From a virus, in the IMG/VR virus record IMGVR_UViG_3300037502_001797, positions 1 through 30,332 of that record: a stretch of 30,332 nt of DNA; one strand, 5' to 3'. The position numbers were made by a program, and so were the translations under genes. Shown piece by piece: positions 1,595-30,332 of this stretch (position 1 is its first letter; every line of letters begins with the position of its first letter). The notes under the pieces are model-generated. The model saw only the letters and a program-made list of their open reading frames with translations, ran no database searches and had not been told where the DNA came from.

Positions 1595-3325
1595 ATGGTG
1601 TACTCGACGCAGACGACTCCGCAGCCTCCCGCGCCCGGCAACCCTGACGAAGCACGCCGCGTCGAGCACACGCGTCATCGATACGCGATGATGGAGGGGC
1701 GCTGGCTACCTCTCCTCGAGGCGCGCCTCGAGCAGCAGCTGGGATCCGTTCGTCGCGCCGCGTGGGGAACGGGCGACATCACGCAGTGCATCCTCCGCAC
1801 GACCTCGATCGAGCTCGCGACGCTGTACGACAGCGAGCCGGACGTAAAGCACTCGCAGATCGCGCCCAGCCCGAACCTTGAGCGCCTCATCGGCTCGACG
1901 GGCAGCATCGCGCGCTCCGGCCTCTGGGCGCAGATGGCGCGCTTCCAGGCGCTCGTCATCGCGCTCCGAGAAATGTGGATGCGGGTTGAGGTCGTCGACG
2001 GTCGCCTCGTCTACCGTCCGGTCCCGCCGCACATGACGATCGCGGAGGCCGACCCTGCTCGGCCGACCGTGCCGACCATGTTCGGCGAGTTGCGCCTCCG
2101 GTACATCGACCGCAAGCACATCTGGACATTCGACCTCTGGGACATCCGCGACCAGGAGAACCCGTCCTACCGGGTCGTCGAGGCGCTCGACGGATGGCAG
2201 TTCGGTCGTGACCTGACGCAGGCGCTCCACGGCGCGACCTACGTCGGCGCCGACTACCCGGCGGCGTGGCGCCGTGCGAACGGGACGCCCATTATCCCCG
2301 CGCAGCTGTACCACGCGTCGAACTACGGCGATCGCCTCTTCGACCCGTTCGCGCAGATCGAGCTGTACGAGGGAACGCTCAACCTCGGCGTGCTCTACAC
2401 GTACCTGCAGCACTGCATCCGCGATGCGTCCTACCCGCAGCGGTACGCTGTTGGCGTTCGCGTCGCCGGTACGGAGTCGGTGGACGGCGGAACGCGGGCC
2501 TCGCGTTCGGAGGTCACGACCGACCCGACGACGATCCTGATGCTCGATCCGGTCGGCGAGACGAGCCAGCCGATGATCGGGCAGTATCAGGCCGGCTCGG
2601 ATGTCGAGAAGCTGGAGGCCGTCATCGCGGCCGTGGCGCATCGCCTCGCGACTGACGCGGGCCTCGCGCCGTCCGAGCTCCAGCGCACGTCGGGCAGCGC
2701 CCGCAGCGGGTACGCGATCAGCCTCTCGCAGGAAGGCAAGCGCGTCGCCCAGCGCCGCTACGTGATGCAGTTCCGCGCCGCCGACGAGGCGCTCGTGGGT
2801 CTGTCCGCGATCCTCTTCAACCGCTGGGCTGAGTCGAACACGGAGCCCACGAACTATCCGGAGGGTGGCTACTCGGTCCTGTACCGCGAGATTCCGCTCT
2901 CGCCGGATGAGATGCAGGCCCGCCGCGAGCACGTCCTCGCGATGCTCGGCGCTGGGCTGATGTCTCAGATCGACGCCCTGCGCTACTTCGGCTCGCTGAG
3001 CGAGCAAGACGCCGTCGCTCAGCTTGCTGCCATCAAGGCGATGCAGGCAGAGGCGCCGCCTACAAGCCCTGAAGAAGGAGCAAAAGCGGGCGAGGCGGCG
3101 CCTGCCGGCGACGTATCCCATGCGGAGGCCATGGCGGAGGCGGTCGACGAGTTGCGCGCGTCCGAGGAGGCGCTCGACGGGCTGCTCGAGGCGGCTACTG
3201 GCGACCAGCGCGACATCCTGCGCGCCGTGCTCGAGAGCCTGCGCGAGGCCCGCGGCTATCTGACCGGTCAACCTGTCGAGGCCGAGACGGAACTCCCGCG
3301 TGAGGACACGCAGGAGGACGGCTGA
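1595..3325 (+). CDS. Portal protein
   Basis: The 576-residue product sits between large terminase and the head genes and has the length and composition of a phage portal, the dodecameric ring at the vertex through which DNA enters. A GTG at 1586 directly follows the terminase stop, but the ATG at 1595 has AGGTGG (1584-1589) at good spacing, so I prefer ATG. The central part (about residues 230-440) resembles portal stem and clip regions, with a segment around GSARSGYAISLSQEGKR. The C-terminal 100 residues are alanine/glutamate-rich and probably coiled. Its stop overlaps the next start as TGATG. The assignment is by position, size and general resemblance. Confidence 0.82.
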   Translation: MVYSTQTTPQPPAPGNPDEARRVEHTRHRYAMMEGRWLPLLEARLEQQLGSVRRAAWGTGDITQCILRTTSIELATLYDSEPDVKHSQIAPSPNLERLIGSTGSIARSGLWAQMARFQALVIALREMWMRVEVVDGRLVYRPVPPHMTIAEADPARPTVPTMFGELRLRYIDRKHIWTFDLWDIRDQENPSYRVVEALDGWQFGRDLTQALHGATYVGADYPAAWRRANGTPIIPAQLYHASNYGDRLFDPFAQIELYEGTLNLGVLYTYLQHCIRDASYPQRYAVGVRVAGTESVDGGTRASRSEVTTDPTTILMLDPVGETSQPMIGQYQAGSDVEKLEAVIAAVAHRLATDAGLAPSELQRTSGSARSGYAISLSQEGKRVAQRRYVMQFRAADEALVGLSAILFNRWAESNTEPTNYPEGGYSVLYREIPLSPDEMQARREHVLAMLGAGLMSQIDALRYFGSLSEQDAVAQLAAIKAMQAEAPPTSPEEGAKAGEAAPAGDVSHAEAMAEAVDELRASEEALDGLLEAATGDQRDILRAVLESLREARGYLTGQPVEAETELPREDTQEDG

Positions 3326-6381: not shown

Positions 6382-7134
6382 GTGTCGCTCGCAGAGACCG
6401 TCTACACCGCACGGTTCCGTAGCTCGGAGACCATCGAGCGCGGGCGCACGCAGATCCTGTCGTGTCCGACGCAGCGCGCGGGTGCAGCCGCTGCGCCGAC
6501 GAGCGGCACGTTTACCTTGTACCGACCCGATGGTTCGACGCTCGTTACGGGCGCCGTATCCATCGTGTCGAGCGTGGCGCAGTACAGCCTGACGGGTGCG
6601 CTGACCACGGCAGAGGCTCTCGGCGAAGGCTGGCTCGTGGAGTGGGCGCTCGTCATGCCGGATGGCGTGACCCATACCTACAGAAACGACGCCGCCGTCT
6701 GTAGGAGGACCCTCTACCCGGTCGTGTCGCAGGCGGACCTTGAGCAGCGCCACAGCGACCTGCCGGCCCTGCTCGGAACCGCTGCCAGTTACCAAAATTA
6801 CATCGATGAGGCGTTCGCCACGATTGCTAATCGCCTCATCGGAAACGGGCGTAGACCCTATCTCATCATCCAGCCGAGCGCGCTTCGGGACGTTCACCTG
6901 ATGCTGACGCTCCACCTCATCTTCCTCGACTTCTCGACGAGCGCTGGTGACGGCGGTCGCTGGCAGGCCCTCGCGGCGCACTACGGGCAGCAGTACGAGT
7001 CCGCGTTCGCGCAGTTGAAGTTCACCTACGACGAGGCGGACGAGAACACGGTCGACCCGACGAAGAAGAAGGGTGGCGCGAGTCAAATCTGGACGAACGG
7101 TCGCGGGTATAGCAACCCGTATTGGCGCGTCTGA
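6382..7134 (+). CDS. Head-tail connector candidate (250 aa)
   Basis: GTG 6382 is preceded by AAAGGAGG, one of the best ribosome sites here. Residues 1-110 look beta-rich (TSGTFTLYRPDGSTLVTGAV), like a small Ig-like or jelly-roll unit. Residues 115-220 are helical, with HSDLPALLGTAASYQNYIDEAFATIANRL, similar in layout to gp6/gp15-type adaptor proteins that extend the portal ring. The order capsid, connector, tail terminator, tail tube supports a neck role. The tail KKKGGASQIWTNGRG is basic and polar. The family assignment is inference, and I see no catalytic motif. Confidence 0.55.
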   Translation: MSLAETVYTARFRSSETIERGRTQILSCPTQRAGAAAAPTSGTFTLYRPDGSTLVTGAVSIVSSVAQYSLTGALTTAEALGEGWLVEWALVMPDGVTHTYRNDAAVCRRTLYPVVSQADLEQRHSDLPALLGTAASYQNYIDEAFATIANRLIGNGRRPYLIIQPSALRDVHLMLTLHLIFLDFSTSAGDGGRWQALAAHYGQQYESAFAQLKFTYDEADENTVDPTKKKGGASQIWTNGRGYSNPYWRV

Positions 7135-25867: not shown

Positions 25868-26049
25868 GCCACGGAGGACCACGCCCGAACGCGGGTAGAC
25901 CGAACCCTTGGGGACGCGGTACGCGCCTTCAGCCGCGCACGCTGCGCCTGCCCGACGCCGTGTGGGATGCGCTCGACGCGACAGCGAAGCGGGAGCAGGT
26001 CACGCCTGCGGTCGTCGTCGCTCGCCTGCTCGAGGTGCCTCATGCGTAG
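25864..26049 (+). CDS. Small GGPRPNAGRP-motif DNA-binding candidate (61 aa)
   Basis: The N-terminus GGPRPNAGRP is a basic motif seen at the start of many small phage and plasmid proteins. The C-terminal 35 residues (RTLRLPDAVWDALDATAKREQVTPAVVVARLLEV) have the strand-helix-helix pattern of a ribbon-helix-helix repressor. It may autoregulate. It overlaps the next gene by 8 bases. Confidence 0.6.
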   Translation: MSHGGPRPNAGRPNPWGRGTRLQPRTLRLPDAVWDALDATAKREQVTPAVVVARLLEVPHA

Positions 26050-26617
26050 CTGGACGACGCACGAGATCGCTGAGCTCAAGCGGCTGTCACGTGAGGGCGT
26101 ACCGCTTCGCGAGATCGCGGAGCGCCTCGAGCGGACCTACAAGGCGACGGCCATCCAGGCGCTCAGGGTCGGCATCGTGTCGCCTCGTCAGCGTCAGTGG
26201 TCGACCGTCGAGATCCGACGCGCGCGGCAGATGTACGACGCCGGCAGCTCGCCGACCGTCATCGCCGAGCGCCTCGCGCGCACCGAGCGAAGCGTGCGCG
26301 CCCAGCTCGCGCGGCATGGGGGGCTCGACCGGCGGCGCAAGGGCGCGACGCGCCGAAAGCACGACGTGACAGCCTACGCCCTCTGGATGCGCGGACTAAC
26401 CGCCACAGAGGTGCTGATCGTCCTCGACCGGCGGAGCGATAACAACGCCCGGCGGGGGCTCTGCGCGTGGCTCACGAGGTACGCCGAGCGCGCCCGCTTG
26501 CCTGTCCCGGCGCCGCATCGCCGGTATCGGGTCGACTGGGACCGCGTCGAGGCCGCGCGTCGTGAGCTGTACGGTCCCGCCGTGCAGCCCCTTGACCGGG
26601 AGCGGAAGGCGTCGTAG
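26042..26617 (+). CDS. Three-module HTH protein, SANT/GcrA-like (191 aa)
   Basis: Modules at about 4-45 (SWTTHEIAELKRL ... REIAERLERTYKATAIQALRVG), 53-93 (WSTVEIRRARQMYDAG ... VIAERLARTERSVRAQLARHG) and 108-150 (a more divergent HTH) align with the 94-residue protein encoded from 24991. GAGGTG (26031-26036) precedes ATG 26042. The tail is basic. It could act as a transcription factor or as an origin- or packaging-site binding protein. It ends the operon before a terminator. Confidence 0.6.
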   Translation: MRSWTTHEIAELKRLSREGVPLREIAERLERTYKATAIQALRVGIVSPRQRQWSTVEIRRARQMYDAGSSPTVIAERLARTERSVRAQLARHGGLDRRRKGATRRKHDVTAYALWMRGLTATEVLIVLDRRSDNNARRGLCAWLTRYAERARLPVPAPHRRYRVDWDRVEAARRELYGPAVQPLDRERKAS

Positions 26618-26836: not shown

Positions 26837-27676
26837 ATGGACATGAGACAAGAGGCGCGGAAGTGCGCCAGCATCGGGCTGCGCGTGTTTCCGCTCCACG
26901 AAATAGGCGCCGGCCTCATATGTTCCTGCAAGCATGGCGCGACGTGCAAGAACGCGGGGAAGCACCCACGGATCTTGGAGTGGCAACTCAACGCCACAAG
27001 CGACGAGGCGACGGTCGGCGAATGGTTTAGGCGCTGGCCGCGCGCGGGGCTCGGCATGGCGACGGGTCGCGCCTCGGGCGTATGGGTGCTGGACCTCGAC
27101 GGCGACGAGGCGATCGCGTGGTACGCGAGCAAGGTCCGCGAGCACGGCAGGACGCCGACGCGCGGCGTTCGCACCGGACGCGGGCGGCATCTCTACTTCA
27201 CGTTCCCTGACGGCGTTGAGATCCGGAACATGCAGGACGTCGACAAGCAGAAGATCGACGTCCGCGGCGATGGCGGCTTCGTCGTCCTGCCGCCAACGCT
27301 GCACTACTCCGGCCGACGCTACGAGTGGCTCGACACGGGCGTGTACCAGCAAGAGCCGGCAGCGCCGCCCGGCTGGCTCATCGAGTACGTGCGCCACGTC
27401 CCGCCGTCGCCGCCGCCGCCGAGGCCCGCGTCAGTGAGCCGTGAGGGGCTGCGCCGCGTCTTCAACGACGCCATTGACGCCGATCCTGACCTTCGCACGA
27501 AGCTCGGAGAACGCGCGGGAGGGCGGCTGCGTGCCAACTACGTCGACCGCTTGCGCTGCCCTTCTTGCGGGCGACATGACGCATGGTTCTACGTTCACGG
27601 CGGTCCCGCCGTGTGCCACCACCGGAATAGCTGCGGCTGGGCCGGTCCCATCACTCGTATTTTGGAGATCGCATGA
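26837..27676 (+). CDS. Bifunctional primase/polymerase (prim-pol)
   Basis: The N-terminal prim-pol domain shows ICSCKHGATCKNAGKHP (28-44), the catalytic LDLDGD (D86, D88), RTGRGRHLYF (with H118) and IDVRGDGGFVVLPPT (140-154). It makes primers and may extend DNA. A Pro-rich linker (188-198) leads to a zinc ribbon (C241, C244, C260, H261 or H262, C266). The start ATG 26837 has a weak ribosome site after strong hairpins. ATGA joins it to the helicase. Many related phages fuse both in one chain; here they are separate. Confidence 0.88.
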   Translation: MDMRQEARKCASIGLRVFPLHEIGAGLICSCKHGATCKNAGKHPRILEWQLNATSDEATVGEWFRRWPRAGLGMATGRASGVWVLDLDGDEAIAWYASKVREHGRTPTRGVRTGRGRHLYFTFPDGVEIRNMQDVDKQKIDVRGDGGFVVLPPTLHYSGRRYEWLDTGVYQQEPAAPPGWLIEYVRHVPPSPPPPRPASVSREGLRRVFNDAIDADPDLRTKLGERAGGRLRANYVDRLRCPSCGRHDAWFYVHGGPAVCHHRNSCGWAGPITRILEIA

Positions 27677-29145
27677 CGAACGATGAGATGGCCGAGATCC
27701 TCGGCGTGAAGGTCTACCGACCCACCGATGGAGGCAACGCCGATCGGCTCGCCGACCGCTTTGGAGACGAGGTCCGATGGTGCAACGCCGTCCAAGGCGA
27801 CGGGTGGCTCGTCTGGGATGGAGCGCGTTGGGCACCCGACACAATGCTCCGCATCGACCAGCTCACGCGCCTCGTGGCGGGCGACGTCGTGCGTCACGCC
27901 GAGGACGTCGGCACCGACCTGCGCGCTGCCGAGGCGCGCGTCAGTCACCCGCCCACGTCCGCCGAGGCCGCGCGCATCTCCGCGCTGCGTCACGAGTTCC
28001 GCGTCTGGGACGGGTGGAGCCGCTCCACCGAGATGGTTGGACACCTAAAGGCGATGCAGACCGTCGCGCGGCAGCGCGTTGCCGTTGAGCAGGACCGGCT
28101 GGACGCGGACCTCTGGGCGTTGAACACGCCCGAGGGGGTCGTGAACCTCACGACCGGCGAGCTCGCCGCGCACGACCGCGACGCGATGCACACGAAGGTT
28201 GCAGGCGCCTCACCCACCGGCGACTGTCCGACGTGGCTCGCGTTTCTCACGCGCATCATGGGCGACGACGCCGAGATGGTCGCCTTCCTGCAGCGCGTCG
28301 TCGGGTACTGCCTGACGGGCAGCACGCGCGAGCAATGCATCTTCATCCTCTATGGCAACGGGTCGAACGGGAAGAGCACGTTTCTCGACACGCTGCGCGC
28401 GGTCCTCGGTGACTACGTCATGCACGCGCGCGCCGAGACGTTCATGCGCGATCCTCGAGGAGGCGGCATCCCGAACGACGTCGCTGCGCTCCGAGGCGCT
28501 CGCGTCGTAACGGCCTCCGAGCCGGAGCAAGGCGAGCAGCTGGACGAATCGCTCGTGAAGGAAATGACCGGAGACGCGGCGATCACCGCGCGCTTTATGC
28601 GCGGCGAGTTCTTCACATTCGCGCCGCGGTTCAAGGTGTTGTTGGCGACGAACCATCGTCCCGTCATCCGCGGCACCGATCATGGGATCTGGCGGCGCAT
28701 CCGGCTGATCCCGTTCACGGAGACGATCAGCGACGCCGAGAAGGACCGCGACCTGATGAACAAGTTGCTCGCCGAGCGAGACGGCATCCTCGCCTGGGCC
28801 GTGGAAGGATGCATCGCGTGGCAACGCGAGGGGCTCGCGCCGCCCGACGCCGTCCTTGACGCCACCGACGACTACCGCGCCGACATGGATTGGCTCGGTG
28901 AGTTCATCTCCGACCGCTGCGTAGTTGGCGTGCAGAGCGTGGCGAACACCGCGCTCTTCCAGGCTTACCGTGATTGGTGCGAAGCGAACGGCGAGAAGCC
29001 CAGAGCGCAGCGGTCGCTGACCCGCGCGCTCCTCGATCGCGGCTATCGGCAGGCCGCCAACCGCATGAACGGGCGACGTTGGGATGGGCTCGGGCTGAAG
29101 GAGGACGCGCTGCCGAAGGTGAAGGAGCGGGGCGCCGTGTGGTGA
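27673..29145 (+). CDS. SF3 replicative helicase, D5/P4 alpha-like
   Basis: The 490-residue enzyme has a D5-type N-terminal part (WALNTPEGVVNLTTGEL, about 148-164), then the SF3 ATPase: Walker A GNGSNGKST (228-236), Walker B-like VVTASEPEQ with E283, sensor LLATNHRP (N327), and an arginine finger in IWRRIRLIPF (R341/R342). It unwinds DNA as a hexamer at the origin and is coupled to the prim-pol by ATGA. The C-terminal 90 residues resemble the winged helix of such helicases. Its stop overlaps a 12-bp palindrome (29144-29155) at the edge of the iteron array. Confidence 0.92.
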   Translation: MTNDEMAEILGVKVYRPTDGGNADRLADRFGDEVRWCNAVQGDGWLVWDGARWAPDTMLRIDQLTRLVAGDVVRHAEDVGTDLRAAEARVSHPPTSAEAARISALRHEFRVWDGWSRSTEMVGHLKAMQTVARQRVAVEQDRLDADLWALNTPEGVVNLTTGELAAHDRDAMHTKVAGASPTGDCPTWLAFLTRIMGDDAEMVAFLQRVVGYCLTGSTREQCIFILYGNGSNGKSTFLDTLRAVLGDYVMHARAETFMRDPRGGGIPNDVAALRGARVVTASEPEQGEQLDESLVKEMTGDAAITARFMRGEFFTFAPRFKVLLATNHRPVIRGTDHGIWRRIRLIPFTETISDAEKDRDLMNKLLAERDGILAWAVEGCIAWQREGLAPPDAVLDATDDYRADMDWLGEFISDRCVVGVQSVANTALFQAYRDWCEANGEKPRAQRSLTRALLDRGYRQAANRMNGRRWDGLGLKEDALPKVKERGAVW

Positions 29146-29411
29146 CCGATCGGTCTACGCCGGACACATCGCGGACAGATGCAGGACACATCAAGCGCCT
29201 CTACGATCCGCATCAACACTACTTCAGGACAGATCGGACACACACTGTAGACATGATCCCTACACGCACGAGAGTTATGGATAAGTCCTTTCGTTATGTA
29301 GGTTGCGATCACCTCGTCACGCTCTGTCCGATCTGTCCTGTAGTAGCTACCATCGGCATCGTAGAGGGTGGCGATGTGTCCGCGATGTGTCCGTGGATGT
29401 GTCCGATCTCC
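29144..29411. repeat. Symmetric iteron array, probable origin of replication
   Basis: About ten copies of GGACA(C/G)ATC occur. Forward: 29162, 29173, 29184 (exactly 11 bp apart), 29227 and 29236. Inverted: 29321, 29330, 29373, 29384 and 29396. CAGGACAGATCGGACA (29225-29240) has a perfect inverted match at 29325-29340. The centre (about 29270-29300) is AT-richer and holds TTATGGATAA, whose reverse complement is one base from a DnaA box. CCTACA (29259) and TGTAGG (29297) flank it. Seven GATC sites lie in the region. It follows the helicase gene. No coding sequence is credible here. Confidence 0.8.
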
Positions 29412-30045: not shown

Positions 30046-30332
30046 ATGGCAACGAAGAAGAAGCAGCCACCCCGCGCAGAGCTCAGTCCGACCGAGTCGG
30101 TCGAGGCGACGACACTGGCCTACCTGCGCGCGTCGCTCGTGCAGCTTGAGGAGGCCGTCGTGAACGCGACGGAGGCGGGTAGCTGGACCGCAGTCAGCAA
30201 TCTCAAGAAGGCGGCGCTTGGCGTGCGCGTCACGCTGGACGCGGAGATCGCCAAGTCGACGTCGCCTGACGAGAGCATGTCCGATGAGCAGCTGATCGGC
30301 GTCATCGTCGACGCTGTCGCCTCGCTGCCGCC
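30046..30332 (+). CDS. Small terminase subunit candidate, N-terminal part (continues at 1)
   Basis: ATG 30046 begins a frame that runs to the window end and continues at base 128, ending at 203. The start MATKKKQPPRAELSPTESVEATTLAYLRASLVQLEEAVVNA is basic, then helical. The ribosome site is weak (GGGTG). See the entry at 1-203 for the role and for the limits of the call. Confidence 0.65.
   Translation, partial: MATKKKQPPRAELSPTESVEATTLAYLRASLVQLEEAVVNATEAGSWTAVSNLKKAALGVRVTLDAEIAKSTSPDESMSDEQLIGVIVDAVASLP
30206..30332. repeat. Right copy of 127-bp terminal overlap
   Basis: This stretch is identical to bases 1-127. When both are merged, the probable small terminase gene is intact (120 codons plus stop) and the map is circular at 30,205 bp. 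Confidence 0.95.

Follow-up and report, generated by a model that had tools for sequence, protein, structure and literature searches.

Origins annotated directly after a gene for a P4/D5-type primase-helicase are on record in phages. The record of phage Sfi21 places a 302-bp origin right after the orf382 primase gene, and that of Lactobacillus phage A2 a rep_origin after the primase gene, while the P4 record annotates both crr and ori1. In P4, crr is required in cis and synthesis starts at the separate ori1. At the origins of SV40 and the papillomaviruses, an SF3 helicase acts as a double hexamer on symmetric sites around the start. The SaPI origin, as Ubeda is said to have described in 2012, has an AT-rich region with a symmetric set of iterons on either side. 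By way of a C-terminal domain, SaPI Rep and Cch2 each bind iterons that follow their own gene, with Rep apparently bound as two hexamers (PMC7581432). In the Sulfolobus plasmid pRN1, replication requires a 100-bp stem-loop located after the Prim-Pol/SF3 gene, and this element plus the replication operon suffices (PMC4234260).

The genome and its replication genes

The sequence analysed here, referred to as the window, is a single virus record in its full length of 30,332 bp (IMG/VR record IMGVR_UViG_3300037502_001797, positions 1–30,332). A direct repeat of 127 bp at its two ends (1–127 and 30206–30332) makes it probable that the genome, of 30,205 bp, is complete and either circular or permuted. 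Its GC content is 66%, and nearly all genes lie on one strand. A gene for an archaeo-eukaryotic primase/polymerase (Prim-Pol; 26837–27676, plus strand; Pfam PF09250, E 2.3e-37) overlaps with its end the start codon (ATGA) of an SF3 (D5/P4-type) helicase gene, the presumed initiator (27673–29145, plus strand; D5_N 8.8e-27, DUF5906 and a Pox_D5-like C-terminus), whose product also matches the PHROG DNA primase at 9.4e-141. The two are separate genes in this phage and one fused protein of ~780 aa in the relative L008, so that the separation reflects either a real split or an assembly frameshift. On the 3′ side of the array described below follow a small gene, a YozE/SAM-like gene and, past the circle joint, the gene for the terminase large subunit (200–1585), ~1 kb further round the circle. 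The genome also encodes RuvC-like and Erf-like proteins, as well as HTH proteins near the array (e.g. at 25967–26617), and no partition protein was recognised among its scanned proteins. GC skew rises gently round the whole circle with no inflection at the array, a profile that is uninformative given the one-strand gene bias.

An array of opposed iterons follows the SF3 gene

All seven exact copies of GGACA(C/G)ATC in the 30,332-bp record fall within 29162–29404, three on the plus strand (29162, 29184 and 29227) and four on the minus strand (29330, 29373, 29384 and 29396), whereas the reversed control pattern of GGACASATC does not occur in the record at all. With three near copies the total reaches ten, five plus-strand copies on the left side opposing five minus-strand copies on the right. 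The array begins 16 bp past the SF3 stop (29145) with the outer-left group, composed of GGACACATC (29162–29170, exact), GGACAGATG (29173–29181, one mismatch) and GGACACATC (29184–29192, exact), all on the plus strand. The inner-left pair, likewise on the plus strand, comprises an exact copy, GGACAGATC (29227–29235), and GGACACACA (29236–29244, two mismatches); it is mirrored on the minus strand by GGACAGAGC (29321–29329, one mismatch) and GGACAGATC (29330–29338, exact). Three exact minus-strand copies of GGACACATC (29373–29381, 29384–29392 and 29396–29404) form the outer-right group. Copies are spaced 11/11 bp in the outer-left group, 11/12 bp in the outer-right group and 9/9 bp in the inner pairs. 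Between the inner pairs lies a 76-bp AT-richer centre, the presumed melting region (29245–29320; 47% GC against 66% for the genome).

Much of this had been described in the earlier note, which spoke of about ten copies in two opposed groups around an AT-richer centre, directly after the prim-pol and SF3 genes, with exact 11-bp spacing on the outer left and a 16-bp inner repeat perfectly inverted across the centre; the positions above bear it out, the inner repeat being CAGGACAGATCGGACA at 29225–29240 with its perfect inverted match at 29325–29340. What it overlooked is a second mirrored motif between the inner and outer iterons, CTCTACGAT on the left (29199–29207, plus strand) and its counterpart on the right (29358–29366, minus strand; ATCGTAGAG on the plus strand), which sits at a fixed distance and is kept in most close relatives.

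The array is far beyond chance: nine copies with at most one mismatch were observed against a maximum of two and a mean of 0.28 in dinucleotide shuffles of the intergenic region. The remaining 29.9 kb contain no exact copy and ten scattered one-mismatch copies, and a scan of the record with the 9-mer revealed no second iteron cluster. With five plus and five minus copies on opposite sides, the arrangement is unlike the one-sided layout of iteron plasmids, a contrast that the note had drawn and that is supported as architecture, as is its comparison of the layout with viral origins that load two helicase rings. Its suggestion of a role for DnaA fared less well. The single DnaA-box-like site, TTATCCATA (29276–29284, minus strand), carries one mismatch, has four equally good counterparts elsewhere in the genome, and is absent or reversed in relatives. 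Judging from this distribution, the site is probably incidental, and the clustered, conserved boxes of a DnaA-dependent origin are not present.

Comparison with described origins

The traits of origins that follow SF3 genes recur in the window: a D5/P4-type gene upstream, opposed iterons round an AT-richer centre and a mirrored core. In Sfi21, two copies of TTAGTTAC and two inverted ones flank a 71-bp centre of 89% AT directly after the SF3 gene; the repeat sequence is unrelated to ours, the spacing is 8 bp, the centre is far AT-richer, and the SF3 protein is only 27.5% identical, over half the protein. Phage A2 likewise carries opposed CGGGAGGAT-type repeats after its primase gene, but their irregular spacing does not pass the strict geometry scan described below. 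P4 has a gene of the eponymous alpha type, with crr right after it and opposed type-1 repeats that include a 9-bp pair; it differs in having two separate repeat regions, a crr duplicated as 120-bp repeats, and a primase fused to the helicase. The required stem-loop of pRN1 (locus L204, downstream of 5030) proved to be an exact mirrored tandem pair of TGTCCA-type units, TGTCCATAG TGTCCAACT, with 9-bp spacing and a 60-bp gap, after an AEP-SF3 gene; unlike the array, it was described as a stem-loop, lacks outer iterons and has its units reversed in orientation relative to GGACA. SaPIs, which are satellites and not phages, also have the origin directly after the initiator gene (Rep helicase; SF3/D5 type in SaPI5), a likeness drawn from published descriptions. 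The symmetric sites around the start that serve the SF3 helicases of SV40 and the papillomaviruses are a further parallel; these sites are unrelated, and the origin-binding domain of these helicases is N-terminal (PMC7581432).

The label 'undescribed', which the earlier note had attached to this origin, is not supported, because origins at the same place are known: Sfi21 and A2 have them annotated after P4/D5-type primase-helicase genes, and for pRN1 and SaPIs there is functional evidence. As an origin, the array is a new phage example of this known kind, not a new origin type.

The array accompanies the helicase gene in close relatives

Among relatives with 63–71% identical SF3 proteins, the array starts no more than ~20 bp after the SF3 stop in every one with enough downstream sequence. 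Its units read, for example, GGACACTTC, GGACACATC or GGACAGGTG, and most of these relatives have an outer-to-inner spacing of ~43 bp on either side. Downstream sequence beyond the array differs among some of them while the array stays, which ties it to the helicase gene and not to its other neighbour. L008 and L009, two of the relatives, share a block of ~94% identity that runs from the Prim-Pol/SF3 gene through the array into the start of the next gene and is joined, on its upstream side, to unrelated sequence; gene and array therefore travel together. Within this block, the changes sit in the iterons and the centre, the spacers between iterons are nearly identical, and the last 60 SF3 residues are identical. 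In several copies of both arms (6435–6670 in either locus), iteron position 6 changes from C to G, a concerted change despite the unchanged SF3 C-terminus. Another relative, L012, has a longer inner arm (6500–6660), with a non-iteron insertion of ~10 bp, TACCATTTCAC, mirrored in both inner arms. When viral contigs were scanned for GGACANWTC pairs, at least 120 stretches were retrieved, mostly single chance pairs; among the matches listed, a clean 4/4 or 5/5 mirror was confined to this phage and its relatives.

The layout recurs with unrelated repeats

SF3 homologues at 30–47% identity are followed by other repeats in an identical layout and place. To score this geometry, we defined a mirrored tandem element as four 8-mers with a spacing of 8–10 and a gap of 40–100 (maximum score 32), and scanned ~400 bp after the SF3 stop in 56 loci, with 1048 other windows of these loci as controls. 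A score of at least 29 was reached in 37 of the 56 SF3 loci and in none of the 1048 control windows, and one of at least 30 in 31 of 56 and again in no control, bearing in mind that the 56 loci are not all independent because groups of close relatives are included. The core of our phage (29/32 at 29227) is the top score in the whole window, and the annotated Sfi21 origin scores 32/32. In 35 of the 37 high-scoring loci, the centre has a higher AT content than the locus. With the spacing left free between 7 and 14, it equalled 9 in 27 of 34 high-scoring cases; the gap of the mirrored pair ranged from 46 to 95 bp, and its values spread over all helical phases.

About ten repeat sequences occur among the mirrored elements after SF3 genes. 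Besides GGACA(C/G)WTC, the families include GGGAGGAT, GACGGGCC, CAGTGCAG, TGCCACTT, GTGTCGGA and AGTGACAC, as well as TAGTTACT/TGTTACTT in Bacillota, Sfi21 and phi105, TGACGSAT in Acetobacteraceae and AcaML1, and GGCACGAA in an archaeal virus. The comparison shows one mirror layout persisting, with changing repeat sequences, in many unrelated phages and in an archaeal plasmid. About a third of the SF3 homologues in the 56-locus scan lack the strict element; the geometry scan did not find it in TG1, Franklin22, Flapper, P185, Wanderer and a few MAG contigs.

Mirror copies are more alike than tandem copies

Compared over 34 loci, mirror copies show 72 differing positions, against 110 for tandem neighbours; the mirror match is the better one in 21 loci and the worse in two, a bias absent from simulated independent repeats (11 versus 17). 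Complementarity also exceeds a cross-locus null in the flanks beyond the iterons (5.0 versus 3.1 and 5.8 versus 3.5 of 12; p 0.0005). Arm–arm pairing, arm-to-arm copying or position-specific roles of the copies are possible sources of the mirror excess.

Pairing of the arms would suit a structured origin, as proposed for pRN1, in which the initiator recognises a cruciform or a single-stranded hairpin formed by the inverted repeat and the tandem units are secondary. The window array does fold as one long arm-to-arm hairpin (z −7.5), as do most cores from other lineages; the mirror excess, the complementarity continuing into the flanks and the mirrored insertion of L012 point the same way, and pRN1 needs the integrity of both stem and loop (PMC4234260). 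However, nearly every lineage builds its arms from tandem iterons, for which a pure hairpin would have no need, and SaPI Rep and Cch2 bind duplex iterons, Cch2 even without inverted repeats (PMC7581432). In addition, the flank matches may contain degenerate extra iterons, and arm-to-arm copying would yield an equal mirror excess. We regard a hairpin origin as unlikely, albeit the most serious competitor of an iteron origin bound by its own SF3 initiator.

The SF3 C-terminus as the probable reader of the repeats

The most likely reader of the repeats, as judged from sequence comparison and a structural model, is the SF3 C-terminal winged-helix domain. With the helicase core corrected for, repeat similarity over 35 loci correlates with the identity of this domain (partial Mantel r 0.35, permutation p 0.0005), a correlation that is partly phylogeny, whereas the core adds nothing once corrected for the C-terminus (r 0.04, p 0.25). 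An AF2 model of the protein (pLDDT 89.6), built on a 35-sequence alignment since a version from nine close sequences was unusable (pLDDT 39), has a winged-helix-like C-terminus at ~aa 416–475. In Foldseek it matches viral SF3 proteins solved as hexamers or dodecamers (AsfvPrimPol chains). By sequence, the protein also matches the solved chain 7ola, titled 'DNA primase', which we take to be SaPI5 Rep.

What the array is

The earlier note's reading of the array as a replication origin, here one read by the phage's own SF3 helicase, is strongly supported. Two of the three outcomes that the note had named as refuting it were checked, and neither occurred: the 9-mer is dense nowhere else in the genome, and relatives conserve the array. 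We consider it highly probable that the array is a phage replication origin downstream of its own SF3 initiator, with iteron binding, melting and the loading of two rings as the proposed mechanism. This reading draws on the array's place behind the SF3 gene in each close relative sequenced far enough, on the joint movement of gene and array in L008 and L009, on the enrichment of mirrored pairs scoring at least 29/32 after SF3 genes over controls, on the same location of the annotated Sfi21 and A2 origins and the required pRN1 element, on repeat similarity that tracks the SF3 C-terminal domain and not the core, and on the binding of SaPI Rep and Cch2 to their own downstream iterons by that domain (PMC7581432). 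Counted against it are the GC skew without an inflection at the array, the third of SF3 homologues without the strict element, and the phylogenetic share of the C-terminal correlation.

By analogy with relatives, the SF3 protein would use its C-terminal winged-helix domain to bind the GGACA(C/G)ATC iterons, and an assembly would form on either side of the 76-bp centre, nucleated by the mirrored inner pairs with reinforcement from the outer triplets. These two assemblies would melt the centre and turn into helicase rings of opposite direction, the phage Prim-Pol would prime, and with two opposed rings replication would presumably leave in both directions. That two rings are loaded at the array is inferred from the related systems.

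P4 also counts against the origin reading, in that its opposed type-1 repeats lie in crr, right after alpha, in addition to a separate ori1; by this precedent the array could be an accessory region required in cis, with synthesis starting elsewhere. However, the genome has no second iteron cluster, and the Sfi21 and A2 annotations and the pRN1 data put the origin itself at this place, making such a role improbable. Still less probable is an operator through which a regulator, such as the HTH protein at 25967–26617, controls a promoter before 29462. HTH genes are nearby and a gene does follow the array, but the array is retained beside SF3 in relatives whose downstream sequences differ, lineages with unrelated repeats show the same opposed symmetry about a long AT-rich gap, and the repeat sequence tracks the SF3 C-terminus. 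A packaging (pac/cos) or partition site can be dismissed almost entirely despite the terminase gene ~1 kb away, given that in other lineages the element is linked to SF3 and not to terminase, that the pRN1 plasmid carries it yet is not packaged, and that no partition protein was recognised. The pac, partition and operator readings were rejected on comparison.

A possible blueprint shared by AEP and SF3/D5 replicons

More tentatively, at somewhat short of an even chance, we propose that replicons with AEP and SF3/D5 proteins share a blueprint: two tandem 8–9-bp sites with 9-bp spacing, repeated in mirror image across a melting gap of 46–95 bp, just after the initiator gene. It would persist across bacterial and archaeal viruses and plasmids, with repeat turnover tracking the initiator C-terminal domain and mirror halves co-evolving more tightly than tandem copies. 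Because this tighter co-evolution points to arm pairing or arm-to-arm copying, the pRN1 'stem-loop' and the phage and SaPI 'iteron' origins would be the same thing. Neither the mirror blueprint, nor its persistence through repeat turnover, nor the identity of the pRN1 stem-loop with it was found stated in the accessible literature, outside which key subscription papers lie, and priority is uncertain.

Used as a simple rule, the mirrored, 9-bp-spaced pair after an SF3 gene points to the likely origin of many phages, prophages and plasmids without origin annotation. The comparison connects the pRN1 hairpin origin to iteron origins, and makes the face-to-face loading of two helicase rings and the persistence of mirror-site likeness testable questions.

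The GGACA(C/G)AT repeat also accompanies SF3 proteins that are only 36–45% identical, in a Gemmatimonadetes MAG contig (L159) and in Mycobacterium phage Milly (L200). In Milly (~3057–3190) and in Arthrobacter phage Constance (L201; ~3092–3200), hypothetical genes annotated from the SF3 stop onwards enclose the mirrored element, and these ORF calls may be spurious.
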